From Leptodactylus fallax (lineage: Eukaryota > Chordata > Amphibia > Anura > Leptodactylidae), in the NCBI GenBank assembly GCA_947044405.1, contig CAMRHE010000017.1, positions 9,826,001-9,890,000 on the forward strand: a stretch of 64,000 nucleotides of DNA. Direction: 5' to 3'. How positions within the stretch are numbered: position 1 is the stretch's first letter; each line of letters starts with the position of its first letter. Made by a program: the position numbers and the translations under genes. Shown one piece after another: positions 18,813 through 64,000 of the stretch. The notes under the pieces are model-generated. The model was given only the letters and a program-made list of their open reading frames with translations, searched no databases and was not told the DNA's origin.

Positions 18813-19901
18813 ATGACTGAGCAAAGTGACATTGTGCCATCTGTTTCTAGTGATCCAGCAGTGCCCATGGCGAGCAGCCTACCATTCTCCATGCCATTTT
18901 ACCCTGGCGCACCATGGCTGCCGAGCTACAAAGGGGAGGCGCATACCCTCAGGGACTTTCGTGAGAAGATGCTGTCTCTCTTCCAGTTCTATCCTCTGAA
19001 TACAGAACAGCAGATACAGATCCTGCTGGGCCAGCTTGAGGGTGCTGCAGCTAGGGAGGTCAAATCCTGGCCTGCCTCTGACAAAAGAACCCCTGGGCAA
19101 ATTCTGGACAAACTCCAGGTGAACTTTGACGTGCGATCTGTCTCCGAGGTAAAGATGCGCTTCTTTTCCAGACGACAACTACCTGGTGAGACCCTGCGGG
19201 ACTATGCTTTATCCCTACAAGAGGCGTTCAGAGCTGTGGTGCAAGTGGATCCACGTGAAAATGTGGACTCTGATAAAATCTTGCTTGACCGCTTCATAGA
19301 CGGGGCGGGTACCACATTGCTCCAGAGTCAGTTGCGAATGCTTGCTGCACAACATCCCAGCATCACGTTTGCTGACTTCAAGGCCCTTGCCATCCAGGTC
19401 TTGGGACAGGAGCAGCCCCAGCCGAGCCCAGTCATCTGTGCTCCCTCACCTGGACCCTCAACAAGCATTGCTCCAGTTGTCCTGCCACTACCTCTGGGTA
19501 CCTCACCTGCTGCCCAAACTGTGCAGACTACACCAGCAGACTCCAGAGATGACCTTCTGGCCCGAGTGGATCATCTGACCCGTGCCATGGAACAGATTAC
19601 CGTCCGTCTAGATCGTCTGACCCAGCCGTCTTCATCATCCAGTGATCCTTTGCGAAGTCTCAACATCTCACCTGAGTCGCCACTCAGACGTCCTTCTTCA
19701 GTGAAACCTCCGCAGAGTGAGAGGCCATACTGTACCTATTGCCATAGATATGGACACACCAGGCCTCAGTGTTTTCAGTTAAACGGGCCACCCCCGAGGC
19801 AGCGGGCCGCCCCTCGGGAGGAAAGAAGAAGGGCCCAGGTGAATCTTCAGTGCCATTGTCACGCTTCGTCTCAGCCTGCCCACACATCACAATCCGGGTG
19901 A
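18813..19901 (+). CDS. gag: Gag polyprotein of Gypsy element 1
   Basis: Structural protein of 362 residues that would form the intracellular particle and bind the genomic RNA. The start is the first ATG (18813) of a frame that runs unbroken to 19901. Residues roughly 35-200 look like a retroelement capsid domain rich in helices (words such as 'FREKMLSLF' and 'MRFFSRRQLPGETLRDY'). The linker is rich in proline and serine. One CCHC zinc knuckle, C-X2-C-X4-H-X4-C, lies at residues 307-320. Pol overlaps the 3' end in the -1 frame, and a frameshift signal sits four residues after the last cysteine of the knuckle. No inactivating change is seen. Assignment as Gag rests on position and the knuckle; the finer capsid family (possibly PNMA-like) is a guess. 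Confidence 0.93.
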   Translation: MTEQSDIVPSVSSDPAVPMASSLPFSMPFYPGAPWLPSYKGEAHTLRDFREKMLSLFQFYPLNTEQQIQILLGQLEGAAAREVKSWPASDKRTPGQILDKLQVNFDVRSVSEVKMRFFSRRQLPGETLRDYALSLQEAFRAVVQVDPRENVDSDKILLDRFIDGAGTTLLQSQLRMLAAQHPSITFADFKALAIQVLGQEQPQPSPVICAPSPGPSTSIAPVVLPLPLGTSPAAQTVQTTPADSRDDLLARVDHLTRAMEQITVRLDRLTQPSSSSSDPLRSLNISPESPLRRPSSVKPPQSERPYCTYCHRYGHTRPQCFQLNGPPPRQRAAPREERRRAQVNLQCHCHASSQPAHTSQSG

Positions 19902-41706: not shown

Positions 41707-43341
<1,635 letters not shown>

Positions 43342-46530: not shown

Positions 46531-46710
46531 GATGATCTATAATTAGGATTAGTCATCAATATCATATTAGGGGGTGTCTGGCAACCAGCACCTCCACTGA
46601 CCAGCTAATAGCAGAAGTAACAGCGCTAGGAATAGCACAATGTATGGAGCCAATAGTAAACAGCTTTACCCCATGTGTAGTGGCCGTGCTGGGTTATAGA
46701 AGGTCAGAGC

Positions 46711-48036
46711 CCATTCATGGAAGTATCACAGACCCATATCATGGAAGTATCACAGACCGGTATCATGGAAGTATCACAGACCGATATCATGGAAGTATCA
46801 CAGACTGGTATCATGGAAGTATCACAGACCGGTATCATGGAAGTATCACAGACCGGTATCATGGAAGTATCACAGACCGGTATCATGGAAGTATCACAGA
46901 CCGGTATCATGGACGTATCATAGACCGGTATCATGGACGTATCACAGACCCGTATCATAGAAGTATCACAGACCTGTATCATAGAAGTATCACAGACCGG
47001 TATCATGGACGTATCACAGACCTGTATCATGGACGTATCACAGACCGGTATCATGGAAGTATCACAGACCGGTATCATGGACGTATCATAGACCGGTATC
47101 ATGGAAGTATCACAGACCTGTATCATAGAAGTATCACAGACCCGTATCATGGAAGTATCACAGACCGGTATCATGGAAGTATCACAGACCGGTATCATGG
47201 AAGTATCACAGACCCGTATCATGGACGTATCACAGACCCGTATCATGGACGTATCACAGACCCGTATCATAGAAGTATCACAGACCTGTATCATGGACGT
47301 ATCACAGACCTGTATCATGGTGTATCACAGCAAGTATCATAGAAGTATCACAGACCCGTATCATAGAAGTATCACAGACCTGTATCATGGATGTATCACA
47401 GACAAGTATCATAGAAGTATCACAGACCCGTATCATAGAAGTATCACAGACCTGTATCATGGACGTATCACAGACCCGTATCATAGAAGTATCACAGACC
47501 TGTATCATGGACGTATCACAGACAAGTATCATAGAAGTATCACAGACCCGTATCATAGAAGTATCACAGACCTGTATCATGGAAGTATCACAGACTGGTA
47601 TCATGGAAGTATCACAGACCGGTATCATGGAAGTATCACAGACCCGTATCATGGAAGTATCACAGACCCGTATCATGGAAGTATCACAGACCCGTATCAT
47701 GGAAGTATCACAGACCTGTATCATGGACGTATCATAGACCGGTATCATGGAAGTATCACAGACCTGTATCATAGAAGTATCACAGACCCGTATCATGGAC
47801 GTATCACAGACCCGTATCATGGACGTATCACAGACCCGTATCATGGACGTATCACAGACCCGTATCATGGAAGTATCACAGACCTGTATCATAGAAGTAT
47901 CACAGACCTGTATCATGGAAGTATCACAGACCCGTATCATGGACGTATCACAGACCTGTATCATGGAAGTATCACAGACCTGTATCATGGAAGTATCACA
48001 GACCTGTATCATGGAAGTATGACAGACCTGTACATA
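46711..48036. repeat. 24-bp minisatellite, about 55 units
   Basis: Unit atcatggaagtatcaca followed by gaccggt, with variation almost limited to three sites: ggaagt/ggacgt/agaagt, cacaga/cataga, and ccggt/cccgt/cctgt/caagt. One irregular unit near 47318-47340 ('ggtgtatcacagcaagtatc') breaks the 24-bp phase. Because 24 is divisible by 3, both strands read as eight-residue peptide repeats for hundreds of codons. No flanking exon supports a gene. Confidence 0.96.
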
Positions 48037-48489
48037 GGTGAGGCTAAATAACACTTACTACCATCTAATGTCAGCCATCAGACTCCACAATGTAGATACA
48101 CTGTATGTGACCCCGGATCGCAGCATAAAATAAAGTGAGCAGCTATACCATGTAAGTAAGATGTGCAGTTAGCAATGTGCACACGATATTAATGATCATA
48201 TTAATGAGCGCAATGTAATAAGACGGCTGGAATTCTCTGACTCGCAAAACATCTCCGGCAAATCTTCTGATACCAAGCAAGAAGTAGAGCATGAAAATTG
48301 TTTCCTTCAGATCATTGCTGGGTTCCATGCTCTCCCTGTGCTTTTCCTGCAGGGGAAATCTTAGAGGTCTTCGTGAACGATTTTAATTTCTTTTCAGGAT
48401 AAATGTTGAATACAGGTCAGTAACTATTAACACAATCTTGTACCAGTTCATACGCCCTGACCAGACACATTATCTCGTAGCAGAGTGTA

Positions 48490-49547: not shown

Positions 49548-50526
49548 TGTAAGAGACAGCCAATGTTGTCTTAAGCTTCATTTGTCTGTATAAACTGTTA
49601 ATGTTGAATGTATTTCTGTGATTCTGTTCCTTTAAGACAGCAGCCATTGTAATTGTGACATGATGCTGGAGTGAGACCCCCCCCCCCTTTTATGTCAGCC
49701 TGCCTGTTCTACAGACAGAGTGTGAGCAGAGAAGCAGGAAGTGACGAGACAGAGAGCAGCAGCCATCTTGGCAAGTGTTGTATTGAACTGGTGTGGAGAT
49801 TTTTCTGTACAGCTAAGCTGTATCTTGGTCCAGAGACAAACAGAGTGTAAAGAGACAACAGGACTAGTGAGTCCACGTGAAAGGAACTGTGCTCAGTGGC
49901 TGATCAGTGAGACTGACATTGTGACTGTGTATATGGATACCACAGATAGAGACTCGCAGTGCTGTTGATGTACTGGACGGCACCTGCTAAATCCCGGCTT
50001 ACATCCCAGCTCAGTGTATGGATTCGGCAGGACTGTCAGTGTGCTGAGTGGAATCTGCTGTTGGATTACATTGCATTCAGTTGGTTTCCCTGTCTGTTAA
50101 AGAGGACTTCATTTCTCCCAAGATCCTGATAACCGTGAGGAGAGGACGCTTCACTATAAAAGAAAGGACCGACTTTGGGCCCCACCGCGCGCTTCTACGG
50201 ACTGTAAGCGGTCCACCTGGACCACTGGGGAAAAGGGGGTGCACCCAAATGTGAAGTCAGGGTCAGTTAGGGATAGTTTTGAGTATATTGTTCATTCAGT
50301 GTCCATACTGCAGAAGTGGACAGAGTAAAAGTAGAAACCATTGCAGAATTTGCCTTGAAATTGTTCATGCTATATTGTATATTTTGCTTGTCTTTAGCCC
50401 TGTCATTTTACCTTTAACTAGCCTTTATTAACTTATAGTAAATATATATTTTTTTTCTTGAACTACCGCGTGTGCGTTCATTTCTGGTTGCGGAGTCCAA
50501 ACCACCTGCCTTGCTCTCGGTTCACA
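49548..50526 (+). repeat. 5' LTR of Gypsy element 2
   Basis: 979 bp, TGTAAGAGAC to GGTTCACA. It has a run of 11 C at about 49677 and a clear TATA box (TATAAAAG, 50155-50162), so the U3/R border should lie about 25-30 bp beyond. The 75- and 68-codon ORFs inside are present in both LTRs and are probably incidental. Confidence 0.95.
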
Positions 50527-50529
50527 AAT

Positions 50530-50547
50530 TGGCGTAGTCGGCAGGAT
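50530..50547 (+). promoter_or_regulatory. Primer-binding site, tRNA-Ser type
   Basis: TGGCGTAGTCGGCAGGAT starts 3 bp after the 5' LTR. From memory it is the exact complement of the 3' end with CCA of vertebrate tRNA-Ser(AGA). Element 1 uses a different serine isoacceptor. Confidence 0.85.
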
Positions 50548-50559
50548 CCGCTTACCAGA

Positions 50560-51585
50560 ATGGACGGTGACGCACCCGTTCGGGAGAATGGTGCTGGAGG
50601 AAGAATGCCAGCAGGGGCTATAATGAGTCAGTTAGCTAAATTTGATGGCAATAATATGTCAGTGAGTATGTGGGTGGAACAGATACGAATGATACAGCGA
50701 ATGTACCAGACCGCACCAGAAGTACTAGTAGAGCTAGCAATATTGACATTACAAGGGGATGCTAAGACCACGGTGATACTGAGGCCATTTGAACAAAGGC
50801 AGACATTTGAGCAAGTAGTCCAGATTCTAGAAACCATCTATGGAGAAACTGCATTGCTGGGGTCTCTGCAGGCTCGGTTCTTCCAGAGGGTACAACAGGA
50901 GAATGAAAGCCTTCCCCAATATGCAAATGCCCTACAAGAACTGCTCCGAGATATTCAAAGGAAGGAAAGAGGGGGCTCGCCAGCCTTCTGTAACCCTGAT
51001 CGGACTCTCCGTGACCAGTTTGTCCTGGGGATACGTGACGGCAGTTTAACTGTGACTATGCAGGATTTTATACGACGAGAGACTGATGCTAAATTCCATG
51101 ATGTACAGGTAGAGGCCATCTCCCGTGCCAATAGTATGGTCCCGAGGCCGCAGACCGCAGTTGGAGTTACTTTGTCACAGGGGGCTAGTTCTGGCTCAGA
51201 GACAGTAGAAAAAGGGACGGTTAAAGAAATTCTCACAGTAATGCAGAAACTGCAAGAACAAATGGAACACTTGCACACTCGTTGTGATGAGCAGTCTATG
51301 AAAATTGCAGACTTCCAGAAGACTGGAGATGAAAGGGTGAGCCATCCACACCCAGCAAGTCAGAATCACCCACCACCCCGCTGGAGGGGTGAGGATAGGA
51401 CCTACCGAAGGGGTCCAAATCATTTAGTGCAGTGCTCAGGAGAAATCGAAGGGGCTTACCGAAGGGGCCCAAACAGATGGCCAGAACGACGGGGGATACG
51501 CTGCTGGGAGTGTGGACGGATGGGCCACGTTGCTGCTACATGTCCAGAGCAGCGACAAACTTATGAGAGACCGCCGTTAAACTGA
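50560..51585 (+). CDS. gag: Gag polyprotein of Gypsy element 2
   Basis: A protein of 341 residues. I chose the ATG at 50560, 12 bp after the primer-binding site; the frame extends back into the LTR but without another ATG. The region from about residue 25 to 220 is a likely capsid domain ('FDGNNMSVSMWVEQIRMIQ', 'LGSLQARFFQRVQQENESL'), followed by a charged helix at about 240-265, a basic PRW/RGPN-rich stretch, and one CCHC zinc knuckle at 315-328 (CWECGRMGHVAATC). It ends TTA AAC TGA, with the frameshift heptamer overlapping the final two sense codons. No defects seen. Confidence 0.93.
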   Translation: MDGDAPVRENGAGGRMPAGAIMSQLAKFDGNNMSVSMWVEQIRMIQRMYQTAPEVLVELAILTLQGDAKTTVILRPFEQRQTFEQVVQILETIYGETALLGSLQARFFQRVQQENESLPQYANALQELLRDIQRKERGGSPAFCNPDRTLRDQFVLGIRDGSLTVTMQDFIRRETDAKFHDVQVEAISRANSMVPRPQTAVGVTLSQGASSGSETVEKGTVKEILTVMQKLQEQMEHLHTRCDEQSMKIADFQKTGDERVSHPHPASQNHPPPRWRGEDRTYRRGPNHLVQCSGEIEGAYRRGPNRWPERRGIRCWECGRMGHVAATCPEQRQTYERPPLN

Positions 51586-51619
51586 AGTCCCCTGCTGCTG
51601 AAGGGCGTGTAGTAGGGGA
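51576..51619 (+). promoter_or_regulatory. Probable -1 ribosomal frameshift signal (gag-pol)
   Basis: G TTA AAC at 51576-51582, directly followed by the gag stop TGA. After a 5-nt spacer, TCCCCT (51588-51593) can pair with AGGGGA (51614-51619) around a 20-nt loop, which leaves room for a pseudoknot. Pol is in the -1 frame. Same heptamer as element 1. Inferred, not shown. Confidence 0.7.
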
Positions 51620-51647
51620 GACTGACAAGGAGACTATGTGGGGAGAA

Positions 51648-51650
51648 TGA
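51648..51650 (+). other. Premature stop in the gag-pol junction of element 2
   Basis: In the -1 frame entered at 51576 the reading is open for 24 codons and then meets TGA at 51648-51650. From 51651 the same frame is open to the end of pol. The next bases contain a short direct repeat (tgacctgatga, tgacctgatcg), but removing it would not restore the frame, so a substitution is the simplest cause. Confidence 0.85.
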
Positions 51651-51689
51651 CCTGATGATGACCTGATCGCTGCAAGTCCTGTCATACAG

Positions 51690-54600
51690 GTGGAAATGGA
51701 GGGTATTCCGGTTACCGGGATGATTGACACGGGTTCCCAAGTAACGACCTTGAGTAGAGACTGTTATGAACGGTACTTCCGGCAACATGTGAAATATGAT
51801 CCCCATACATTCGTACGAGTGGTCGCAGCTAACCAGTTACCAGTTCCGGTCGTGGGAGTGGCCTGGATGAATGTCCGGGTATGTGGCCAAGATCTAGGTA
51901 GGAAAGGCATTGTGGTGGTACAGGAGTCACATGAAGTAAAGGTCCCTGTCATTTTGGGGATGAATGTGTTAAAAGAATTAGATCAGATCCTCTTTGAAAA
52001 GAAAGGTCACGGTTATTGGAAAGAAACCACCACCCATCGGCCTACTCAAACAGCTTTCCATCGGCTGATCCGGACATGTGGCTTACAGAAAAGTTCAGAT
52101 GCACAGCGTCCTCTGGCTCGAATTTCAGTTCCTTTGCATACAAAAGTTACACTGCCACCCAGTCGGGAGACAATAGTGTCCATGCCCGTAGGCACCTGTC
52201 GGAAACTAGAGGGCATAGCTGTGTTGGTAGAACCACTGCAGGCAGCCGAAGGAGGTGTTGATCCGCTAGTGGCCCGTTCCTTGGCAATAGTTCGCAATGG
52301 AAGAGTACCACTTCGATGTGTAAACACTCAGGACCAGAGTGTGGACCTGACCCCAGGGAGGCTGCTGGCTAACATCTATGTGACTCCGGAGGAAGTAAGG
52401 AAAGTAACTCCAATGCAGCTGAAGCCGACTGAAAGGGATGAGTGGACCGTAACTGTGTCCATGGGAGAAGATGAGGAACCCACCTCTGAATGGAATGGCT
52501 GTGCAATTCGAGAACAGATGAAGATGGATGTAAGTTCATGTTCTCTGGAATGGGTGCAGAAGGTAGATGAGCTGTTGTGGGAGAACCAAGCCACCTTTGC
52601 ACGGTATGCTGAAGATTTTGGATGTACCACAGGGATCTACCATGAGATTCCCACAGGAGACACCCCTCCAATTAGAGAGCGCTACCGACAAATTCCTCCA
52701 CAGTTGTATCAGGAAGTGAAAGAACTGTTAGCTAAGATGCTACAGGGTGGGATCATCCAAGAAAGCCAGAGTCCCTGGGCGGCTCCTGTGGTGTTAGTAA
52801 GAAAAAAAGATGGGTCCATCCGATTTTGCGTAGACTATCGGAAGTTAAACGCTTGCACCGTACGAGATTCCTACCCCTTGCCACGGATTGAGGAGTCCCT
52901 CTCAGCGCTAGGGAGAGCCCGGTACTTCTCCTCACTAGATCTGGCTAGTGGGTATTGGCAGGTGCCGATGGCCACAAAAGACAAGGAGAAGACGGCATTC
53001 ATCTTGCCCATGGGACTATACGAATTTAACCGGATGCCCTTCGGGTTGACAAATGCACCCGGAACGTTTCAGCGGTTGATGGAGAAATGTCTCGGTGACT
53101 TCAACTTTGAGTTCACTCTCATCTACTTGGATGACATTATAGTGTATTCTGCGACCTTTGAAGACCATCTCCACCAGTTGGGGCAAGTATTTCGAAGATT
53201 GCGGGAACATGGGCTCAAATTGAAACCCAGTAAATGTCGGTTGTTCCAATCTGAAATTGATTACTTGGGTCACCGCGTATCAGGAGAAGGGGTGAGACCA
53301 TCAAGAGACAAGATAGCGGCTGTTCAAGATTGGCCGATACCGACTACCCTGCGAGAAGTGAGGGCGTTCCTTGGAGTAGCCGGTTACTATCGACGGTTTA
53401 TTAAGGATTTCGCCAAGGTAGCAGCACCACTTAATGCTCTCCTACGAGGCACATCCGGTGGTCCAAAGAACCGGTCCGTGAAGTGGGGACCTGAACAGGA
53501 ACAAGCCTTCCAGGCATTGAAGGATGCACTGACAACAGCCCCAATCTTGGCATATGCTGATTACCACTTGCCGTTCCAGCTATATACAGATGCAAGCCTG
53601 TATGGTCTTGGAGCAGTGCTTTCCCAGCTTCAGGATGGCCAGGAGAGGGTCATAGCGTACGGCAGCCGGTCTTTGAGAGATTCTGAAAGAAACCCCGAGA
53701 ATTATAGTTCATTTAAATTGGAGCTGTTGGCACTGGTATGGGCCATGACCGAGAAATTCTCTGAATATTTGACCGGTGCTGAAGTTTTAGTACTGACTGA
53801 CAACAACCCACTAGCTCACCTGGAAAATGCCAAGCTCGGGGCGTTAGAGCAGAGGTGGATAGCCCGAATGTCTACATTCAATTACCGCATTAAGTATCGG
53901 TCCAAGACAGAGAACCAGAATGCTGACGGACTTTCTAGGGTAACTGCCCAGACCCCCACAGAAGACGTGGATCATGAGTTGGAGCATGTGGAGGTGCCCG
54001 ATTTCAGCAGATTTTCACAGGCCTTGACCGCCACTAATCAGTTTGAGATGGAGGGGACTGAAATGGCTCCTTTCTTTGGTCCCTCACGACAGGAATGGGC
54101 ACAGATACAACAGACCCATGAGGGGCTGGCGCAGATGATCAAGTGTGTTGAGAAAGGCCAGAAGCCCTGTAGAGAGGAAAGAGAACGACTGACACGTGAG
54201 ATATTATCTGTTTTGAGTCAGTGGGAAAAGTTGGAGATGAAAAATGGAGTGCTATGCCGAAAGGTCTATTTACCTTCTGAGATCGACATTCGATACCAAA
54301 TTGTGGTGCCTAGTGAACTGGCTTGCTCCTTGGCAGTTGAGGCTCATAATAAGAATGGATATTTTGGTCATGAGAAGACCTTTCGTTGGTTACAGCGACT
54401 GATTTACTGCCCTGGTCTTCGTCAAATGGTCGAAGAAGTATGCCGCAGCTGTCGAACTTGTGAGATCCATAAGGCAATAGAACAGAGAGCTCCCCTGCAA
54501 ACCATCGTGACCCAGGAACCTTTAGAAATCGTCATGATAGACTATCTAATGGTGGGCCCATCCAATAGCGGACACCAGTATTGCCTCGTAATGGTGGATC

Positions 54601-55724
54601 ACTTCACCAAATTTGCGGTGGTAACCGCCACCAAGGACCAGACAGCTGAGTCAGCAGCTCGTGCTCTGTGCCAAGATTTCATTCGAGTATATGGGTGCCC
54701 CCAACGCATCCACTCCGACCAGGGCGCCTGCTTTGAGGGACACGTAATGAAAGAAGTTCAACGTATCTACGGGATAAAGAAGTCGCACACGACTCCATAC
54801 CACCCTCAGGGAAATGGGGCCTGTGAAAGATTCAACAGAACTCTGCTACAGATGCTGCGGACTCTGGAGGAAGACAAGAAGTTACAGTGGCCTCAGTTCT
54901 TGTCTGAAATGGTGTGGGCCTATAACAATCAGGTCCATTCTACAACGGGGTACTCTCCTTATACACTTCTCTTTGGGCGGTCTGGGCGAAGTATAGGAGA
55001 ATTACAGTTGAATGATGTGGATGGGTTCCCTCCGAGGGATCCAACCTCTTGGGTGCGGGCGCATCGGCAGAGACTTGAGACGATCCATCGATTGGTGCGG
55101 CAGCGCCTGCAAGAACATCCCCATCCTGATAAGACCCCAGTGCAAGAAGCACCATTGCAACCAGGCGACCTGGTGCTAGTTCGTGTCAAGAAACCCCAAG
55201 GGAAATTGGAAAGCAGATGGGAGGCTTTGCCGTATCGTGTTGTTGGCCGCAAGTATGCGAATGGGCCAGTGTACCAGGTCCAGAAAGAAGGAACTGATTG
55301 TGTTCGAGTACTTCACCGAAATATGTTGCGCCTGTGTCATTCTGAAGGGACAAATCACGATGGGCCTGCCAATGTGAATGAGCTCCCACAGTCAGAGAAT
55401 GGAGGTGCGGAATGGGCCTCCGACGAGGAGGATGATTGTTGGCCGATCCCTGCTCCTGGGGATGTTCCACCTGTGACTACTGTATCTCCGGCCTGTGCCC
55501 CCTCTGGTGCGGAATCCGCTGGTCCTTCTCAGCCCATAGCTGCAGCACCCCATAATATACCACCGGTCCTCAGACGGACCACTAGGCCAAATGCTGGTAT
55601 TCCCCCTGTTCGGTATGCGCAGGATGAGTTTGTTTGGCCTGCCATACATCGGTATACTACCACCCTGTGCATAAAAGTACAACCCTCTGGATATACAGTC
55701 ATAGGCAGGGACTGCCACTCTTAA
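51690..55724 (+). CDS. pol: Pol polyprotein of Gypsy element 2 (PR-RT-RNase H-IN)
   Basis: An open frame of 1344 codons counted from a GTG at 51690; the frame is open from 51651. Order: aspartic protease DTG at residues 13-15; reverse transcriptase YLDD at 479-482; RNase H first aspartate (YTDAS) at 634 and a later TDNN; integrase with an HH-CC zinc region (H...H...CRSCRTC) and the triad D951, D1010 and E1046, again with 35 residues between the last two. The C-terminal 'LVLVRVKKPQGKLESRWEALPYRVV' area is GPY/F-like; no chromodomain is seen. It would be made as Gag-Pol by -1 frameshift, but the TGA at 51648 would stop that product before the protease. The stop codon (55722-55724) overlaps the polypurine tract. 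Confidence 0.95.
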   Translation: MEMEGIPVTGMIDTGSQVTTLSRDCYERYFRQHVKYDPHTFVRVVAANQLPVPVVGVAWMNVRVCGQDLGRKGIVVVQESHEVKVPVILGMNVLKELDQILFEKKGHGYWKETTTHRPTQTAFHRLIRTCGLQKSSDAQRPLARISVPLHTKVTLPPSRETIVSMPVGTCRKLEGIAVLVEPLQAAEGGVDPLVARSLAIVRNGRVPLRCVNTQDQSVDLTPGRLLANIYVTPEEVRKVTPMQLKPTERDEWTVTVSMGEDEEPTSEWNGCAIREQMKMDVSSCSLEWVQKVDELLWENQATFARYAEDFGCTTGIYHEIPTGDTPPIRERYRQIPPQLYQEVKELLAKMLQGGIIQESQSPWAAPVVLVRKKDGSIRFCVDYRKLNACTVRDSYPLPRIEESLSALGRARYFSSLDLASGYWQVPMATKDKEKTAFILPMGLYEFNRMPFGLTNAPGTFQRLMEKCLGDFNFEFTLIYLDDIIVYSATFEDHLHQLGQVFRRLREHGLKLKPSKCRLFQSEIDYLGHRVSGEGVRPSRDKIAAVQDWPIPTTLREVRAFLGVAGYYRRFIKDFAKVAAPLNALLRGTSGGPKNRSVKWGPEQEQAFQALKDALTTAPILAYADYHLPFQLYTDASLYGLGAVLSQLQDGQERVIAYGSRSLRDSERNPENYSSFKLELLALVWAMTEKFSEYLTGAEVLVLTDNNPLAHLENAKLGALEQRWIARMSTFNYRIKYRSKTENQNADGLSRVTAQTPTEDVDHELEHVEVPDFSRFSQALTATNQFEMEGTEMAPFFGPSRQEWAQIQQTHEGLAQMIKCVEKGQKPCREERERLTREILSVLSQWEKLEMKNGVLCRKVYLPSEIDIRYQIVVPSELACSLAVEAHNKNGYFGHEKTFRWLQRLIYCPGLRQMVEEVCRSCRTCEIHKAIEQRAPLQTIVTQEPLEIVMIDYLMVGPSNSGHQYCLVMVDHFTKFAVVTATKDQTAESAARALCQDFIRVYGCPQRIHSDQGACFEGHVMKEVQRIYGIKKSHTTPYHPQGNGACERFNRTLLQMLRTLEEDKKLQWPQFLSEMVWAYNNQVHSTTGYSPYTLLFGRSGRSIGELQLNDVDGFPPRDPTSWVRAHRQRLETIHRLVRQRLQEHPHPDKTPVQEAPLQPGDLVLVRVKKPQGKLESRWEALPYRVVGRKYANGPVYQVQKEGTDCVRVLHRNMLRLCHSEGTNHDGPANVNELPQSENGGAEWASDEEDDCWPIPAPGDVPPVTTVSPACAPSGAESAGPSQPIAAAPHNIPPVLRRTTRPNAGIPPVRYAQDEFVWPAIHRYTTTLCIKVQPSGYTVIGRDCHS

Positions 55725-56720: not shown

Positions 56721-57416
56721 CTCCATGGAACTTGCTCTGTGCTATGCAGCCACAACAGCACATTACAGATTGGGCCTGGACCAGTTACTCTGGCCCCAGG
56801 CTCTCTGACTGGCCTTTACTCTGAGTCTAGCCCATGCTGCTGGACACACCATGCCATTTGTCTAACTTGCACCCAGTCTCTGTAGGCCTCATACGCATGC
56901 CTTGCTGCACTAGGCCTCACATCAGGCTTATGGCATAGTCATTTTCACTTCCCCAGCAGTGAGCTTCCTGGCAGACTGACGCCAAAGCACCATTCCGGTC
57001 TCTAAGGAAAGCAAAACTCTCTATTTAACTCCTAGGTCAAGCCCCGACCACCTTCTAACAAGCTATGGAGCTGGAATGTGTATTCACTGCTCAATGTAGC
57101 AGTGTTTTACACTGAATCTGTAATGCAACTGCACCACCTATTGACTAGCACTGGTACTGCACCTTAACAGATTAATACAGCAACATTAATATAAACCACA
57201 GCATGCACTTAGTTAGTAGGCTGCCAGACCTGTCTGCAGCAAACTCTTAAGCTCCCCCTAGTGGTGACTGCAGATAGCCATAATATTACCATTTACCTCT
57301 ACATCTGTGTAAATGGCAACTTCAACCCTTATAAAATATTTTGTGATGAATCAGATGAGAATTTTGGATCCAACAATTAAACTGTGTTATAAAGTAGGCT
57401 TTCATAGAGTTATCCC
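56721..57416. other. Non-coding stretch, no gene seen
   Basis: No exon or repeat termini recognised. Confidence 0.45.
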
Positions 57417-57705
57417 TTAAAAAGAATGTGTCATCAGAACATAGGTTAGGGTCAATTGAATCAAATGGTGTATTCCCCTTGTAAATCGCTGGCGCCGTTC
57501 CCGAGATATTGTCATTTTTGTTAATATGCAAATTAGCTTTTTGCAGGAACAAGGGCATTGCCATTGTTTCAAAGAGGTAAGTGATAGCGCCCTCATTGCT
57601 CCAAAGAGCTCATTTGCATATTGACAAAAACAGTGATATACCGGCAATGGCGGCAGCGATTCACAAGGGGAAACACATTTTGATTCTGGTGAATGCAAAG
57701 GTATC
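57417..57705. mobile_element. T2-like MITE, diverged
   Basis: Starts TTAAAAAGAATGTGTCATCA and is related to the central part of the MITE at 35531-36271: 'ataggttagggtca', 'gtattccccttgtaaatcg', 'gagatattgtcatttttgtt' and the inverted 'tattgacaaaaacagtgata'. The right end is unclear. Confidence 0.6.
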
Positions 57706-58590
57706 ATCCTGAGGGCACAAGGCCTGTAGTCTGCCCCACTCATCTGTCCAACTCTTGTTACCATAGATCAGGCCAAAACTACAATGGCAGGGGTATGAAG
57801 ATCAGTAACTGACTGTCTCCACCAGCAGGTAGAGAGGCCGGTGCAGATAGCAGGTTTGAAGGTTTTATCTCACCCCAAGTACTTTATTTATATCAATACA
57901 TGTCAGTACTTCCCTATAATGTCCTATATATTGATGCCACTTTTTCAACAAAAACACAAGTGGATCCTCTGCAGACTATGACTTATCGGTGACATTCTCT
58001 TTGATAACAGTCACTTTCTCTTTTCTCTGGTATATATGAGTACAAGTGTGGTGAAAAATATATGGTGGATCCATGGCTAGAGCATAACTATACCTCCTGC
58101 GATATCCCTTCCTTATTCCTCACCTATGGGCTCCCTCTACAAGACTGAATTTTTGTTATTATTTGGCAATTGGCTATATTTAGGCAGTTTTGGTTATAAA
58201 TTTTGGAATGCAAACAGTACTGATTACCAAAAAACTTATTTTTTTGGGGGGGGGGCAGGTGATTTTAGGGGTTCCAACATTGTTTCTTCCATCTTCTCTG
58301 ACCCATGAGGAGCCAGCAGAGTTTTAAAAGTCTAAATGTAGCTGAACTCTTTCTGAGGGTAGAGATCTTGCTGGGATCTGTAGTGCACATAGCCTGTGCT
58401 GTTGACAGGGCCAGACATAGGTTAGATGGCATCCTGTACAAATGTCGCCCCCCCCCCCCAACCGCTATGGACTTTTGAAACAGGACATTAAAGTGTTAAT
58501 ATATGAAACAAATCTAATTCCGCCTTTTAGTTACTGCAAAATACAGTAAATTACAGCAAGAAATTATATTTAGCTTTATGGGGAAATGTA
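57706..58590. other. Non-coding stretch, no gene seen
   Basis: No recognisable feature apart from G- and C-runs at about 58246 and 58449. Confidence 0.45.
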
Positions 58591-58597
58591 CAGCTAA

Positions 58598-59035
58598 TTT
58601 TTTTTTTTTTTTTTTTATCGAAGGTCTCAAAGCTGTGCCAACGAAAACACCAGTGCACGGCAAAAAAGTGACGGGTGCCACTGAAAAAAAACGTGCAAAG
58701 GATGCAGTCTATCGCAAAACCCATCTCAAAAGAGAATGGGTCCTCCGAAACTGTCCCCAAACTCAAAGCCAAAAGGCACAAGAGTAAGGGGGCTGAACCA
58801 ACCCAACTGCCTAGACAGGAGGGTCAGTAACTTACTTGGTTTCCTCCATGGGCTGCCACCACCAGGAGTACTACCAAGCCAGCTACTTGCATCAGTCTCC
58901 TCAAGGGCTGCCACCCCAAGAGTACTACTGAGCCTGCAACTGTTGCCTATCTCCACAAAAGCAGAGACAGGCACTGGAGAGCAAAGAAGGAGGGAACCCG
59001 AGGGCCACACACTCCAACTCCTAGACTTCGGGTAG
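58598..59035 (-). mobile_element. Possible retrotransposed fragment ending in poly(A)
   Basis: A run of about 19 T at 58598-58616 would be a poly(A) tail on the minus strand. The sequence beyond it (to about 59035) is more GC-rich than its surroundings and contains overlapping ORFs on both strands (58726-59010 minus and 58736-59035 plus) without known domains. The parent is not recognised; this could be a LINE, SINE or processed copy. Confidence 0.3.
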
Positions 59036-59478
59036 GACCCAAAAGGGTTTCCGCACCCCTACATCCACACAAAAACAGTGACAAACAGGTGACAAAACGT
59101 GATAAACAAAAAAGAATAAATAAGTGAATAGAGTGCCAGTGTACTGGCCCGGTCTATCCGCTGGATCTATAAAAAATTACCCATGCTGGATAAACCAAGC
59201 AATAGGGTGAGTGCTCCTAAGGTGTGTTCAAGTGCTTGTGCAATGTGCCATACTCAGTGGGTTTCCCACGCCCAGTGAGTTAAGGCACCTCTGGAGTCAC
59301 CGTCCCCAGAGGCACTTGCACCATGAGACCTTCGAAAACCTCCCCAGCCCCTTGGCTTCGATCTACCAGGGCCCTCTGCAATCCCTGGTGTGGTTCTCTG
59401 CCTCATGTTCACAGTGTTCAGTTGGCTCCCTACAGGGGGTGAGCGACTTCCCCTGGCGGAACCAACCTACTGGCTGTT
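59036..59478. other. Sequence downstream of U2-associated copy A, unidentified
   Basis: Read on the minus strand it follows the U2 tail. It contains 'gaggcacttgcaccatgaga' and 'cgcccagtgagttaaggcac', with short inverted words, and could be another repeat. I do not recognise it. Confidence 0.35.
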
Positions 59479-59494
59479 ACTGATAAGAACAGAT
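59479..59494 (-). ncRNA. U2 snRNA fragment, nucleotides 38-53 (3' flank of copy A)
   Basis: On the minus strand this reads ATCTGTTCTTATCAGT, identical to U2 nucleotides 38-53, and lies directly after the A-rich end of copy A. U2 identity stops after position 53. It continues, in register, the U2 head at 61510-61541. Confidence 0.8.
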
Positions 59495-61509
59495 TTTTTA
59501 CATTTTTATTTATAAAATTATAAAGCATACAATAAATAGTCAAAGAAACAAGCATTACAATATGCACAAAAACCAAAAATACAATCACACAAAACAACTT
59601 TTACAGAAAAGGAAAGCACTAGATCAAAAATTGATCATAAATCACAAAGTTAGAAATAACCCGAAAACCAAAATTTTCCAACAATTAACTTCGAAAATTA
59701 AAAATGTCCCCATTGTCATCCCATGGCCTAAAGCCCTTAGACCAAGCGTCATGTAACACTAATGTTATGTCACAGGTGTCCAAATTAATTTTACCACTGA
59801 CCCAATTACACAGTAACACCTGCGATATGGCATCCAACTGATACTGATCGAGGGTCCCAGCCAAATTTGTCCTAAGCCTCTGAGAAAACTGCTTCAGTGT
59901 CTCTGGGTGATTCCTAAAGGCACGAAAATCAGAATTTTTATTCAATACCTTCTCCAGATATTTGTGTATGGATTTACGCTCTTCCCTTTGTTCAAGAGTA
60001 AGTAAACTCTCCACACTTATCCCCTTAACTACTTCTTGCACTCCAGAACCTACCTCCTTTTCAATACTTAACTGGGTCTCTTCAATAATCTCTCCTGACC
60101 CTATTACCCTCCTACTAGGTCCCTCTTCCTCATCTGAATATTCCTCATTAATCGTTTCTGCAAGTTCACTGTCTGTTGCAGCTTCCACCGGAATCTCAGC
60201 CTCCATCTCAAAAAATTCTTCTATAATCGCTTCTGCAAGCTCACTATCTGTTGCAGTTTCTACAGGAATCTCAGCCTCCATCTCTACAATTTCCTCCTCC
60301 ACCACTTACTCCGCCCAATCTGTTCTCTTCCTCCTCTTCTTCTTTCCCTTACGCTGACTATCACTATCACACACACTTACAACAGATTCTTTAACAGCTT
60401 CAATCATCCCAGAGTCAGAAATTTCAGTACATGCGGCAATCACCTCATCCACTCCCACATCCGGCACAACACTCACACTGACATCCTCACTCACCAGACC
60501 ATCCACACCGTCATCCTTTCCGTCCCGTCTGCTGGGGCACTGTCTAAAAAAATGTTCGGTAGAATCACATAAATGGCATTTCTTCAAACTATCACAGTTA
60601 GATGATAAATGTCCTTCCTTCTTGCAACGGGTGCATACTATTTTGCTGCAATCAGTGGCAACATGTCCATAGTCCTTACAGTTGGAGCAAAAGTCCGGAC
60701 GACCTTTAAAATAAACGTCTCCGGTAGTCTTCCCAATCTTGAACCGAGCAGGTGGTAAGTGCAGAGTCCCATCAGGTTTCCTCTTGATAGTACAGGCGAA
60801 GCGTCTTTTGCAAGTCCAAAAACCGCACTCGTTGTAAACTTTTCCACTAGGAACACAAGCAAAACAAAATTGTGACAGAAACAGAGCGATATCTTTTTCC
60901 TCGATAAACGGGCTATACATCAATACAGTCACCATCAATTCATTATCCGGAAAGTGGGGAGTTATTTTCACTCCCTCCATCTCTGAACTATCACGTACTA
61001 CAGACATGTCCAAAAAGTTTTTCAGATAAGCTTTGCAGCCAAAAGTAACGTCGTACTCGCCTTTTTTAGGTCTGTCCATAACGGAAAGAATCCTCTCTCT
61101 GGTCATCCTGAAGATCCCAAGAAGTAGAGTGTTGCAAACGAATCGCAGCCCTTTTGCTGCACGGAACTTCTCCTCAATGAAGATCCTGACGGAATTCTCC
61201 ACCCGTTGAAAGTTAGGAACGTCTCTCATTGCTGCTGTGTAGCTGACAGGAACGTTGAAAACGAAATCGACTTCGCTCAGGAACCGGAACCACCACGTCT
61301 CTGGCAGGAACAAATCCCAAGCGCCGTCAGGAAACCCAGACACCAGGCAGCTGTCCGGTTTGATCGCCCCTTGTTGTCTTGGGACTAATCCCCTGCCCCA
61401 ATAGCTGCACTCCGGTGAAGGCTCGGCGATAAACCGAGCCGATCCGGAGAGGCCGAGGAGGGGGTACCCAAGACACCTTTTAGCAGATCGCCCCAAGTGT
61501 AGCACGGCT
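59495..61509 (-). mobile_element. ORF1-only non-LTR-like unit, copy A, bracketed by U2 sequence
   Basis: On the minus strand: U2 head (61541-61510), about 280 bp of 5' leader, an ORF1-type gene (61229-59685), a T-rich 3' leader ending 'ataaataaaaatgtaaaaaa', and the U2 tail (59494-59479). There is no endonuclease or reverse transcriptase. Joined U2 parts would be continuous at nucleotides 38/39, so this looks like a target-specific insertion into a U2 gene or pseudogene. Tx1-clade elements of the Keno group are known to target U2 snRNA; membership here is inferred from the site and the zinc-knuckle ORF1. Confidence 0.7.
59685..61229 (-). pseudogene. ORF1-type CCHC protein of copy A, one internal stop
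   Basis: Starts at the ATG at 61227-61229 (MRDVPNFQRVENSV), the position conserved with copy B; the frame is open further upstream through the leader, but that part is not conserved as protein. The first 307 codons end in TAA at 60306-60308; the same frame then runs 206 more codons (60305-59685). Together they span the same length as the intact copy B protein. It has an N-terminal domain of about 180 residues ('RIFIEEKFRA', 'GVKITPHFPDNELMVTVLMY'), three CCHC knuckles (CSNCKDYGHVATDC, CTRCKKEGHLSSNC, CHLCDSTEHFFRQC), an acidic repeat-rich middle and a conserved C-terminal part. The build resembles vertebrate ZCCHC3-like proteins. Such proteins bind nucleic acid; the role here is presumably as a retroelement ORF1. 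Confidence 0.8.
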
Positions 61510-61541
61510 ATACTACACTTGAGACTAGCCAAAAGGCCGAG
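61510..61541 (-). ncRNA. U2 snRNA 5' fragment, nucleotides 8-39 (head of copy A)
   Basis: On the minus strand the segment runs from CTCGGCCTTTTGGCTA to CAAGTGTAGTAT and matches U2 nucleotides 8-39 at 29 of 32 positions; differences are at 24-26. The sequence just upstream (61542-61549) may be a decayed remnant of nucleotides 1-7. The CAAGTGTAG part can pair with CTACACTTG in the element. Confidence 0.85.
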
Positions 61542-61549
61542 AATTATGG

Positions 61550-61632
61550 GACTCGGTGAGTCAAAAGCAAACTGAGGATCTGTTACATCCAACAGAGGGC
61601 GCATGAGCTCCCAGCTCCTTTCCCATAATGCC
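61550..61632 (+). repeat. 83-bp direct repeat, left copy
   Basis: Identical by eye to 63842-63924 in the same orientation. It starts gactcggtgagtc and ends cccataatgcc. The pair encloses copy B with about 184 bp of upstream sequence, as a long target-site duplication would. Confidence 0.9.
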
Positions 61633-61816
61633 TTGTGATATGTAGATGCTTAGTAGAGGGCGAAAGGCAACTCAAAACTCTACACACCTGGTGCTCTCCT
61701 CAAGGAGAGATGTCCCTGTCCATAACCAACTCATTGCCTCCCACAAAGCCAGCCAGCACACTTTGCTCTGCACTGATGAGGGACAAAAATCCCGAAACGG
61801 CGCTGTGTGCAGAATG
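61633..61816 (+). other. Segment upstream of the U2 head of copy B
   Basis: About 184 bp between the left direct repeat and U2 nucleotide 1. It contains 'ctctgcactgatgagggaca' and 'atcccgaaacggcgctgtg'. It could be U2 upstream DNA, a separate repeat, or an extra 5' part of the transposed RNA. No promoter element is identifiable with confidence. Confidence 0.4.
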
Positions 61817-61855
61817 ATCGCCTCTCGGCCTTTTGGCTAATCCCAAGTGTAGTAT
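61817..61855 (+). ncRNA. U2 snRNA 5' fragment, nucleotides 1-39 (head of copy B)
   Basis: The 39 bases begin ATCGCCTCTCGGCCTTTTGG and end AAGTGTAGTAT; they match U2 nucleotides 1-39 at 35 positions (changes at 6, 25, 26 and 27). The fragment stops at the same U2 position as in copy A. It is not a functional U2 gene. Confidence 0.9.
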
Positions 61856-61873
61856 TGCCGTGCTACACTTGGG
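61842..61873 (+). other. Hairpin joining the U2 head to the element
   Basis: CCCAAGTGTAG (61842-61852, U2 nucleotides 26-36) can pair perfectly with CTACACTTGGG (61863-61873) around a 10-nt loop. Copy A has the corresponding 9-bp pair (61494-61502 and 61513-61521). The paired part covers most of the U2 branch-point-recognition segment. Confidence 0.8.
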
Positions 61874-63841
61874 GTGATCTGCTTGAAGGTGTCCTGGGTA
61901 CCCCCTCCTCGGCCCCCTGGATCGGCTTGGTTTCTTAGCCAAGTCTTCACCAGCGTGTAGCTATTGGGGTAGGGGATTAGTCCCAGGACAACGGGAGGCG
62001 ACCAAACCGGGCATCTACCTAGTGTCTGGGTTTCCTGACGGCGCTTGGGATTTTCTTTCTGCCAAAATCGTGGTGGTTCGTGTTCCTGGGCGTAGTCGAC
62101 CTTCTTCCTTTTCAACGTTCCTGTGAGCTACATGTCAGCTATGGGAGGCGTTCCTGACTATCAGCGAGTGGAGAACTCCGTAAGGATCTTCATTGAGGAA
62201 AAGTTCCGTGCATCTAAGGGCTTGAGATTTGTATGCAACACCCTGCTTCTAGGGATTTTCAAGATGACCAGAGAAATGATCCTCTCCGTCATGGACAGAC
62301 CAAAGAAAGGCGAGTTTGACATCACTTTTGGCTGTAAAGTCTTTTTGAAAAATTTTTTGGAAATGTTATCTGTGGTGCAACATTGCCCAGAACTCGAGGG
62401 TGTGAAAATAACACCCCATTTCCCCGATAATGAGTTAATGGTGACTGTGTTAATGTATAGTCCTTATACTGAAGAGAAAGACATTATCTTGTTTCTGTTA
62501 CAGTTTTGTTTGTCTTGTGTTCCCCAAGGGAAAGTCTTCAATGAATGCGGCTTTTGGATGTGCAAAAGACGTTTCGCCTGCACCATTAAACGAAAACCAG
62601 ATGGGACCTTGCTGTTACCGCCGGCTCGCTTTAAAATTGGCAAAACCACTGGGGACATCTATTTCAAAGGCCGACCAGAATTTTGTTCCAATTGCAAAGA
62701 CTATGGACATGTTGCCAAAGACTGTGTCAAAATCGTGTGCTCTCGTTGCAAAAAAGAAGGACATTTATCGTCTAATTGCGATAGTATTAAGAAATGTCAT
62801 TTATGTGATTCCACTGAACATTTTTTCAGGCAATGCCCTAGAAGGCGTGGCGAAAGGGATGACGGCATGGATGGTATGGATGGCGATGAAGGTGAGAAAG
62901 CTGGTACGAGTGTTGTGGTGGACGGTGCTTGTAGTGAGAGTGTGAAAGAAAGTGACGTGACTGCTGTATGTGCTGAAATTTCTGATTCTGGTATGATTGA
63001 AGCGGATAGGGAGCTTGCTTTGAGTGAGGGTGATAGGGTTAGCCAGCGCAAGGGGAGGAAGAAGAAGAAGAAGAGTTCTGATTGGACTGAAAGGGTGGAG
63101 GAGGAGCCTATCGAGATGGAGGCTGTGATTGAGGATAAAGTTGTCTTAGAGGCAGCGACTGATAGCGAGTTGGCCGAGGCGGTCATCGAAGAGTATTCAG
63201 ATGTAGAAGAAGGGCCTAGTAGACGAATTGATAGTTCAAAGGTTATTGTTGAGGAGTCTCCGTCTGAAGGTGTGGTGGAGGAAACACAGCTAAGCTCTAC
63301 TGTTGAGAGTTTGTTTAGTCCGGATGAATTTCGATGTCTTAGGGAATCCGTCAATAGTATTTTAGATGTTGATTTATCTAATACGAGTTTTCACGCTTTT
63401 AGGACTCATCCGGAGACCTTGAAACAATTTCCGGCGTTACTTAAAGGGAATGTTTCTGCGACATGTCGTATTTTTCATCTTTCTAGGTTATCATGTATAT
63501 TATTAGCAAATTGGGTTGCAGGTAATGTTAAGCTGGATAGTGATTACATTTTGTTTATATTACATTCTGCCTGGCAGGGTGGGTTTAGACCTGTAGAGCC
63601 AAAAACGGGTATTGGTCTTGAATTTTGAGTACTATATTTGTCGTGTTTTTGTTTGACGCTTACAATTATATATGTGTCTTTTCAATTTTTGTGGATATTG
63701 ATGTACAACATTGTATTGAGTATTTTGTTTGTGAGGATACTTTGTATTGTTATTTTTGTATTGTTGTTTTTGTATTGTTGATTTTATAAATAAAAATGAA
63801 AAGTGAAACTGGCTTGACTAAAATCCCTTTTGCTGTCTCAA
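61856..63841 (+). mobile_element. ORF1-only non-LTR-like unit, copy B
   Basis: Follows the U2 head at 61817-61855. A leader of about 285 bp closely related to that of copy A ('ggtaccccctcctcggcc', 'gggtttcctgacggcgcttg') precedes an intact ORF1 gene (62141-63628) and a T-rich 3' leader that ends 'attttataaataaaaatg', as in copy A. No U2 tail follows; instead there are about 40 bp and then the right 83-bp repeat. No reverse transcriptase is present. Confidence 0.75.
62141..63628 (+). CDS. ORF1-type protein with three CCHC zinc knuckles, copy B
   Basis: An intact frame of 495 codons. I chose ATG 62141 (MGGVPDYQRVENSV) because it aligns with the only usable ATG of copy A; another ATG lies three codons upstream at 62132. 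Residues 1-180 form a conserved domain ('RIFIEEKFRASKGLRF', 'ILSVMDRPKKGE', 'RRFACTIKRKPDG'). Three CCHC knuckles, each C-X2-C-X4-H-X4-C, are at 182-195, 200-213 and 219-232. Then come an acidic, serine-rich segment with a lysine block (RKGRKKKKKSSD) that could be a nuclear signal, and a C-terminal region (about 400-495) also present in copy A. Likely an RNA-binding ORF1 protein of a retroelement; resemblance to ZCCHC3 is from memory. A host-gene origin cannot be excluded, but two inverted copies with U2 heads argue for mobility. Confidence 0.8.
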   Translation: MGGVPDYQRVENSVRIFIEEKFRASKGLRFVCNTLLLGIFKMTREMILSVMDRPKKGEFDITFGCKVFLKNFLEMLSVVQHCPELEGVKITPHFPDNELMVTVLMYSPYTEEKDIILFLLQFCLSCVPQGKVFNECGFWMCKRRFACTIKRKPDGTLLLPPARFKIGKTTGDIYFKGRPEFCSNCKDYGHVAKDCVKIVCSRCKKEGHLSSNCDSIKKCHLCDSTEHFFRQCPRRRGERDDGMDGMDGDEGEKAGTSVVVDGACSESVKESDVTAVCAEISDSGMIEADRELALSEGDRVSQRKGRKKKKKSSDWTERVEEEPIEMEAVIEDKVVLEAATDSELAEAVIEEYSDVEEGPSRRIDSSKVIVEESPSEGVVEETQLSSTVESLFSPDEFRCLRESVNSILDVDLSNTSFHAFRTHPETLKQFPALLKGNVSATCRIFHLSRLSCILLANWVAGNVKLDSDYILFILHSAWQGGFRPVEPKTGIGLEF

Positions 63842-63924
63842 GACTCGGTGAGTCAAAAGCAAACTGAGGATCTGTTACATCCAACAGAGGGCGCATGAGC
63901 TCCCAGCTCCTTTCCCATAATGCC
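63842..63924 (+). repeat. 83-bp direct repeat, right copy
   Basis: Identical by eye to 61550-61632. The different sequence beyond each copy (ttgtgat on the left, ctctgca on the right) sets the limits. Confidence 0.9.
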
Positions 63925-64000
63925 CTCTGCATAAGATAGGCATGGGAAAGGCTAAGTCCCTGTTCAGATTGTGCATTCAGCGATAGCCATTGGAATGTAT

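Follow-up and report, generated by a model that had tools for sequence, protein, structure and literature searches.

The stretch of DNA described here (the window) comprises 64,000 nucleotides (nt) of the frog Leptodactylus fallax (GenBank assembly GCA_947044405.1, contig CAMRHE010000017.1, positions 9,826,001 to 9,890,000 of the forward strand). Towards its end lie two elements, copy 1 and copy 2, that start with the 5' part of the U2 small nuclear RNA (snRNA) and code for one protein, that of the first open reading frame (ORF1). Copy 1 had been described in an initial annotation as an ORF1-only element inserted in U2 sequence; copy 2, the second U2-headed copy, is absent from that annotation and stands head-to-head with copy 1. 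The features are listed in window positions, with the strand in brackets; L and C numbers denote loci and contigs of the same genome.

58598..59478 (-): body of R1, the repeat interrupted by copy 1; 3' flanks in L019 (twice), L022 and L024 match it at 91-93% identity over 0.81-0.89 kb
59479..59494 (-): U2 nt 38-53 of the target, the U2-headed repeat; 16/16, with the same junction at other loci
59495..61543 (-): copy 1, ORF1-only element with U2 head, delimited by alignment with copy 2; relatives L015 and L016 at 86-88%
59685..61229 (-): ORF1 of copy 1, with two ZCCHC3-type RNA-binding domains and three CCHC knuckles (Pfam, translation)
61474..61509 (-): loop and antisense arm of copy 1, pairing with head U2 nt 12-39 (folding z -5.19 and -5.78, pair list, covariation)
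61510..61543 (-): head of copy 1, U2 nt 6-39, altered at nt 24-26; 31/34, alterations common to L015 and L016
61550..61816 (+): hammerhead-repeat unit 5' of copy 2, ribozyme core at ~61760-61816 (Rfam Hammerhead_HH9 20.2 bits, cut-off 52; eight other loci)
61817..63798 (+): copy 2, ORF1-only element with U2 head, within the hammerhead repeat
61817..61855 (+): head of copy 2, U2 nt 1-39, starting at U2 nt 1; 35/39, E 8e-10 (blastn)
61856..61891 (+): loop and antisense arm of copy 2 (folding z -5.45 and -4.63, covariation)
62132..63628 (+): ORF1 of copy 2, open (Pfam RBD_ZCCHC3_1st/2nd and zf-CCHC)
63799..63924 (+): hammerhead-repeat unit 3' of copy 2; shares an exact 83-bp direct repeat with 61550-61632

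U2 junctions, layout and head of the two copies

With the human U2 sequence as blastn query, U2 nt 6-39 was found at 61543-61510 (-), directly 5' of the remainder of copy 1 (31/34, E 3e-8), and U2 nt 38-53 at 59494-59479 (-), directly 3' of its A-rich end (16/16, E 0.009). The best chance matches in 30 Markov-1 random windows reached 24/34 for U2 6-39 and 14/16 for the 16-mer, compared with 31 and 16 in the window. The coordinates and the U2 38/39 junction of the initial annotation are correct. The 5' piece, delimited there as nt 8-39, is present as well, with a boundary that had been set too short, as it extends to nt 6. This insertion point is the site of Keno and Utopia, which according to the excerpted text of PMC4640811 insert at U2 nt 38/39 and carry a 3' U2 flank from nt 39. 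The Rfam U2 model scored the two heads of the window with 23.6 and 21.5 bits, below the cut-off of 46, as is expected for pieces of only 39 nt. Since no U2 sequence was found around copy 1 before nt 6 or beyond nt 53, a U2 gene at this locus was ruled out.

Both copies share the same layout, consisting of the U2 head, a noncoding 5' untranslated region (UTR) of ~280 nt, ORF1, and a T-rich 3' UTR of 170-190 nt that ends in TTTATAAATAAAAATG and takes copy 2 to ~63798. They are 78% identical across 1.3 kb, with 91% in the head, 85% in the 5' UTR, 54% in the C-terminus of the ORF and 28/31 at the 3' end. Translation of copy 1 revealed a single in-frame stop, TAA at 60306-60308. The 5' UTR differs by ~15% between the copies, compared with 58% at fourfold sites (63/109); an N-terminal coding extension in this region was ruled out by substitutions spread 15/14/14 over the codon positions and by frame-breaking indels, and no HDV-like or other known 5' ribozyme was matched there by Rfam. 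No ORF2 match is present in window 57001-64000, in agreement with the initial annotation, which had found neither endonuclease nor reverse transcriptase (RT) in copy 1. For the ORF1 protein (ORF1p), no homologues were detected in a large protein collection at the E-values used, no match in viral contigs and no Transposase_22 match in Pfam. A PDB fold search with its AlphaFold model returned no significant match, and this model was set aside at a mean predicted local distance difference test (pLDDT) value of 37.9, with residues 1-387 and 488-497 below 50.

The head is predicted to fold back on itself in both copies, whereby U2 nt 12-39 pair with an antisense arm just 3' of the head (z -4.6 to -5.8 in four foldings). 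Changes at head nt 25-26, found in both copies, re-establish pairing that the wild-type U2 bases would not allow; at pair 24-59, one window copy has A-U and the other G-C. Across 13 heads, 95.0% of 337 cells were paired and four pairs were altered on both sides, compared with 30-50% paired and zero pairs altered on both sides in slid hairpin controls. At least 11 pairs between head and arm form in 16 of the 18 distinct non-gene heads found by one motif among the loci collected, while two fail, and the antisense arms vary by lineage. L029, a full-length element in a true U2 gene, folds likewise.

Full-length relatives and an ORF1-only clade

Genome-wide (2.50 Gb searched), the Rfam U2 model found at least 46 places, at least 39 of them in a tandem array on C361 and at least seven on C336. 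L029 splits a U2 gene that lies in a gap of the C361 array, so that full-length relatives of the kind envisaged by the initial annotation do exist in U2 genes of the same genome. On its 5' side, U2 starts with nt 1 at L029:504, and likeness to U2 extends to nt 42, nt 38 being mismatched; on its 3' side the element is followed by an A-run and by U2 38-188 at L029:5890-6040. L029 encodes an ORF1 of 517 amino acids (aa) with the same two RNA-binding domains as the window ORF1 (33% identity over 235 aa) and an ORF2 of 1185 aa with Exo_endo_phos (apurinic-type endonuclease) and RVT_1 matches, whose closest entry in PDB is human L1 ORF2p (E 3e-82). The first 180 nt of L029 match copy 2 at 73% identity. 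Another 5' end of this kind, L063, lies in a U2 gene on C336 and is 98.6% identical to L029 over 500 nt, a comparison of the 5' side only. An A-run directly 5' of U2 from nt 39 onward was found at 32 places.

The search with ORF1 gave 89 matches, part of which entered the clade analysis; another match, on C1432, is 93% identical to copy 2. A row was termed ORF1-only if the 1.6 kb downstream on its strand contained no match to the L029 ORF2 (query start before residue 700). One branch of the cleaned tree (100/100) separates 28 such rows from six full-length rows, and the 28 still group when two more distant full-length rows are retained (96/96). Three rows were dropped from the cleaned tree: L025_8029, which the locus end truncates, and two long ones, L053_1779 and L028_6130; L013 was relabelled ORF1-only, as the ORF2 fragment that had classed it as full-length lies beyond the hammerhead flank. 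L021, L022, L023 and L057, with split or short ORF1 matches, stayed outside the trees, and L022 is interrupted by 3.4 kb of other sequence and of uncertain class.

Nine of the 28 tree rows lie in the hammerhead repeat and 19 elsewhere; the latter, together with L021, L022 and L023, make up the 22 non-hammerhead copies. Fourteen of these 22 (window copy 1, L015, L016, L019-L026 and L054-L056) end in an A-run followed by TCTGTTCT, which is U2 from nt 39, with ten tails reading TCTGTTCTTATCAG and four TCTGTTCTAG. The tails were sought by a U2 motif, so this number counts tail bearers and does not make the other copies random insertions. Among the ORF1-only copies compared, the 3' ends are short and similar.

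Selection on ORF1 was assessed by the NG86 method over the first 200-245 codons of 15 pairs. The seven pairs with a synonymous divergence (dS) of at least 0.25 gave ratios of nonsynonymous to synonymous change (omega) of 0.033, 0.038, 0.041, 0.048, 0.055, 0.073 and 0.096, three of which are rough because dS is near 2. For copy 1 and copy 2 over the whole ORF, omega was 0.115 at saturated dS. ORF1 in this clade is under strong purifying selection and, if the tree is right, has been selected while no ORF2 was present.

Insertion sites and U2-headed repeats

The flank that resembles R1 in L019 (twice), L022 and L024 lies each time 3' of another element. The 28-mer spanning the junction has 104 exact occurrences genome-wide; among 22 occurrences examined at 20 places, 17 run upstream into U2 to nt 38 and five are broken exactly at nt 38 by the A-run of another element, three of these interrupting elements (L034, L043, L046) having a 3' end like that of L029. 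From the recurring flank and the 17 junctions continuing into U2 it follows that copy 1 had entered the U2 head of a dispersed repeat, and not a U2 gene. The head changes of copy 1 are common to its relatives L015 and L016 and occur in none of the 17 uninterrupted target heads; therefore its 5' U2 piece, previously taken as part of the target, travelled with the element, and the 3' piece is the target's own.

Copy 2 sits in a repeat of ~310 bp with a type I hammerhead-like core. The 83-bp direct repeat around it was rejected as a target-site duplication, being part of this repeat, which is found at eight other loci. Nine copies of the copy-2 type (window, L009-L014, L017, L018) occupy one site of the repeat. 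Directly 5' of U2 nt 1 the interrupted units read GCAGAGTG (seven) or GCAGAATG (two), and 3' of the element end the AAGTG of the repeat follows, L012 turning to other sequence after ~20 nt. Each of the 16 uninterrupted units listed has GCAGATAAGTG or GCAGAAAAGTG, and a 30-base pattern (up to one mismatch) found no uninterrupted hammerhead site with GCAGAGTG in the genome. At the position where the ribozyme would cleave, 7 of 9 interrupted units have a G, compared with 1 of 16 uninterrupted units. Hammerhead cleavage follows the NUH rule, and because of this G the interrupted units would mostly not self-cleave. A first hammerhead stem test had given a moderate result, with the joined-flank energy matched in 27/500 random joins and the cross-junction stem in 39/1500, and was superseded by the comparison of sister loci.

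Insertion of two lineages at this site was considered and ruled out, L017 and L018 being mosaics. Their hammerhead flank, 5' UTR and 3' part are copy-2-like and the N-terminal two thirds of their ORF1 come from another lineage (identity of 80-95% in flank and 5' UTR, 53-63% in the middle and 94-100% in the 3' part), so they were not counted as a second lineage.

The junction of GCAGAGTG with U2 occurs at 27 places genome-wide (up to one mismatch), seven of which are the ORF1-only copies above. Ten of the other 20 were examined; the U2-headed repeat is present in nine of them and a second U2-headed long interspersed nuclear element (LINE) in the remaining one, with ~13 nt of hammerhead flank left in L066. 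In six of the nine U2-headed repeats the 3' end is an A-run followed by differing sequences without a hammerhead motif. Across L066-L075 and the junction places, GCAGAGTG and U2 nt 1 join the hammerhead repeat to at least three different U2-headed bodies. This survey indicates that the hammerhead-U2 junction is common to different bodies, and three kinds of U2-headed RNA are found there, namely the ORF1-coding parasite, the U2-headed repeat and the second LINE, which starts after U2 nt 63-66. Repeated site-specific insertion, a template switch onto one hammerhead-U2 module or exchange between arrays may each have produced the common junction, and none of them is favoured.

The second LINE type (L061, L062, the flanks of L015/L016, L074) marks a U2 break distinct from that at nt 38/39. 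Two U2 genes of the C336 array (L061, L062) stop after nt 63, and the sequence that follows is 90.5% identical to that behind the ORF1-only copy of L015 and 84% to that of L016. In L015 and L016 it comes after U2 nt 39-66, and in L015 it leads into an ORF with endonuclease and RT matches.

Further arrangements were observed beside these loci. On C20 (L021, L023, L025-L028), elements stand head-to-tail, ATCTGTTCTAG being followed by U2 nt 1 of the next element. At C353:147280-183819 (L050, L064), five ORF1 matches ~8.9 kb apart form a tandem array, and no U2 match was found in the 1.2 kb examined at the 5' end of one array unit. The window furthermore contains two Gypsy-type long terminal repeat (LTR) retrotransposons with long open gag/pol frames (18813-23836 and 50458-55724, Pfam on pol), a Tc1-type transposase frame with HTH_Tnp_Tc3_2 and DDE_3 matches in Pfam (41925-42734, -), and long tandem repeats open in several frames with SQAFSMYMGEAG and YHGSITDR units (1902-4416 and 46644-48054).

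Interpretation and relation to known elements

We read copies 1 and 2 as members of an ORF1-coding, non-autonomous lineage that works like HAL1, is related to Keno-like U2-specific L1-type elements and is moved in trans, and give this reading a probability of roughly 0.77. Movement in trans, as already proposed in the initial annotation, would be the likely route. In the mechanism we propose, an RNA starting at U2 +1, by U2-promoter or U2-headed transcription, would be translated into ORF1p, which would coat the RNA that encodes it. The ORF2p of an autonomous relative would nick the U2 site between nt 38 and 39 and reverse-transcribe in trans, while the U2 head of the RNA would provide homology to the upstream side of the target, whereby full-length 5' ends are proposed to be kept. 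Dispersed U2-headed repeats would multiply the available targets, copy 1 having used one of them.

Several observations weigh against this reading. The lineage is known from genomic sequence only. True U2 arrays yielded no ORF1-only copy; what matches ORF1 on C361 and C336 is of the full-length type, at 30-31% identity. L029, a possible autonomous partner, has a 3' end that differs from the ORF1-only type, and elements that combine an ORF1-only-type 3' end with ORF2 remains (ending at L021:583 and L026:7741) are partial or fragmented. The nine copies in the hammerhead repeat have no U2 behind them, no U2 tail was recognised in the stretch examined for eight of the other 22 ORF1-only copies, and in L057 (outside the tree, 69.6% over 115 aa) the A-run is followed by non-U2 sequence. 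Two of five shuffle measures of the hairpin were less convincing, with changes on both sides matched in 17/500 shuffles and the count of further pair types, at 432/500, not above them. Four of the 15 ORF1 pairs are saturated at synonymous sites, and four with dS of at most 0.12 are less constrained (omega 0.25-0.38), which is what young copies in decay should show.

The U2 head could alternatively be a product of template switching, in which the RT jumped from the element RNA to U2 snRNA as in U6/L1 chimeras. Chimeras of snRNA and LINE made in this way are described in the excerpted texts of PMC4476161 and PMC13174262, such a jump would likewise yield a start at U2 nt 1, and the U2 heads of other repeats in this genome break off at different points (nt 53, nt 63-66). 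Moreover, U2 likeness is lost before nt 38 in half of the 18 heads, a point that also counts against our own reading: nine are U2-like to nt 39-42 and the others stop at nt 19-37, in an ungapped count that treats a change, an indel or another break alike. However, both window heads and L029 remain U2-like up to the nt 38/39 site (with the nt 38 mismatch of L029), in the true U2 gene that holds L029 the U2 sequence picks up again at nt 38/39 after the element, and the head changes are inherited together with the element. We therefore consider this origin of the head unlikely, although template switching may be the source of the common hammerhead-U2 junction.

Slightly less probable still is that the ORF1-only copies arose by separate internal deletions from different full-length Keno-like families and are short-lived and unselected. 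HAL1-type elements arose several times in mammals, as the consulted portion of PMC5753468 reports, and the loci examined are only a sample. Against such repeated origins stand the position of the ORF1-only rows on one side of a branch in both trees (100/100, and 96/96 with the two distant full-length rows), the low omega between divergent ORF1-only copies and the similar short 3' ends. That the U2 pieces of copy 1 represent a U2 pseudogene hit by an element without its own head is very improbable: the 3' piece does belong to the target repeat, but copy 2 and its eight sisters carry the head at a non-U2 site, which refutes the idea in this form, and the head of copy 1 has lineage changes that the 17 uninterrupted target heads lack.

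Beyond the reading as an ORF1-coding lineage moved in trans, a wider one can be offered tentatively, and we hold it to be somewhat less probable than its opposite. The U2 5' domain would be a captured, portable 5' module, and the antisense arm, having evolved in the 5' UTR of the element, would fold nt 12-39, including the branch-point-recognition sequence, into a hairpin kept by compensatory change. The ribozyme repeat, the U2 head and at least three bodies would belong to one exchange network, in which the ORF1-only clade might persist as a stable, protein-coding parasite, dependent on its own ORF1p in cis and on borrowed ORF2p.

The Keno family, compared here by its description in the excerpts of PMC4640811, resembles the present elements in the nt 38/39 insertion, seen in copy 1 with 13 other copies (14/22) and in L029, and in the apurinic-type endonuclease and RT of L029. 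In contrast to Keno, the window elements have no ORF2, their U2 head accompanies them into non-U2 sites, and copy 2 with its eight sisters as well as L057 are not located at U2 nt 38/39. The U2-targeting lineage proposed in the initial annotation is supported as far as the nt 38/39 insertion is concerned, while the hammerhead copies and the eight copies without a recognised tail speak against strict U2 specificity. As the element has no ORF2 and was compared with Keno by description only, we do not class it as Keno. Concerning the Tx1 clade, the ORF2 of L029 is L1-like by its match to human L1 ORF2p, in a comparison with solved structures. Utopia, a U2-specific element with a restriction-like endonuclease, shares the U2 nt 39 junction but differs from L029 in endonuclease type.

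HAL1 (half-L1) is a non-autonomous element that, as stated in the part of PMC5753468 consulted, encodes only ORF1p, as do the window elements. L1-type ORF1 is described in the excerpt of PMC4120745 as a coiled coil with a single RNA recognition motif (RRM), whereas the window ORF1 has two ZCCHC3-type RNA-binding domains and three zinc knuckles. The U2 head, the U2 site and the single clade in the rows sampled are further differences. Because its ORF1 is not L1-type, the element is not classed as HAL1 either. SINEU, reportedly described by Kojima in 2015, are short interspersed nuclear elements (SINEs) of crocodilians with U1 or U2 heads. They resemble the window elements in the U2-derived 5' head and R1 in its layout of U2 1-53, body and 3' A-run, but are noncoding, whereas the window elements code for an ORF1 under purifying selection. 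The host repeat of copy 2, with ~310 bp and a predicted type I hammerhead-like core, recalls newt satellite 2 and the metazoan retrozymes, tandem repeats of 150-450 bp according to the excerpted PMC7229834; this likeness concerns the host of copy 2 only and an Rfam match below cut-off. In titles and abstract openings of the open-licence literature, a scope that excluded the SINEU, HAL1 and original Keno papers and therefore limits any claim of novelty, no U2-headed ORF1-only element was described.

Elements that encode only ORF1 raise the question of how ORF1p serves the RNA that encodes it if the enzyme is supplied from outside. The omega of 0.03-0.10 between divergent copies of a clade without ORF2 suggests that ORF1p is needed by the element encoding it, and such a clade permits a clean complementation test. 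Through the hairpin of U2 head and antisense arm, co-transcription with an snRNA gene of the host is connected with the RNA structure of a site-specific retrotransposon. Furthermore, the large number of U2-headed repeats illustrates how a scarcity of true U2 targets, as discussed in the excerpted text of PMC4640811, may be evaded by such elements.

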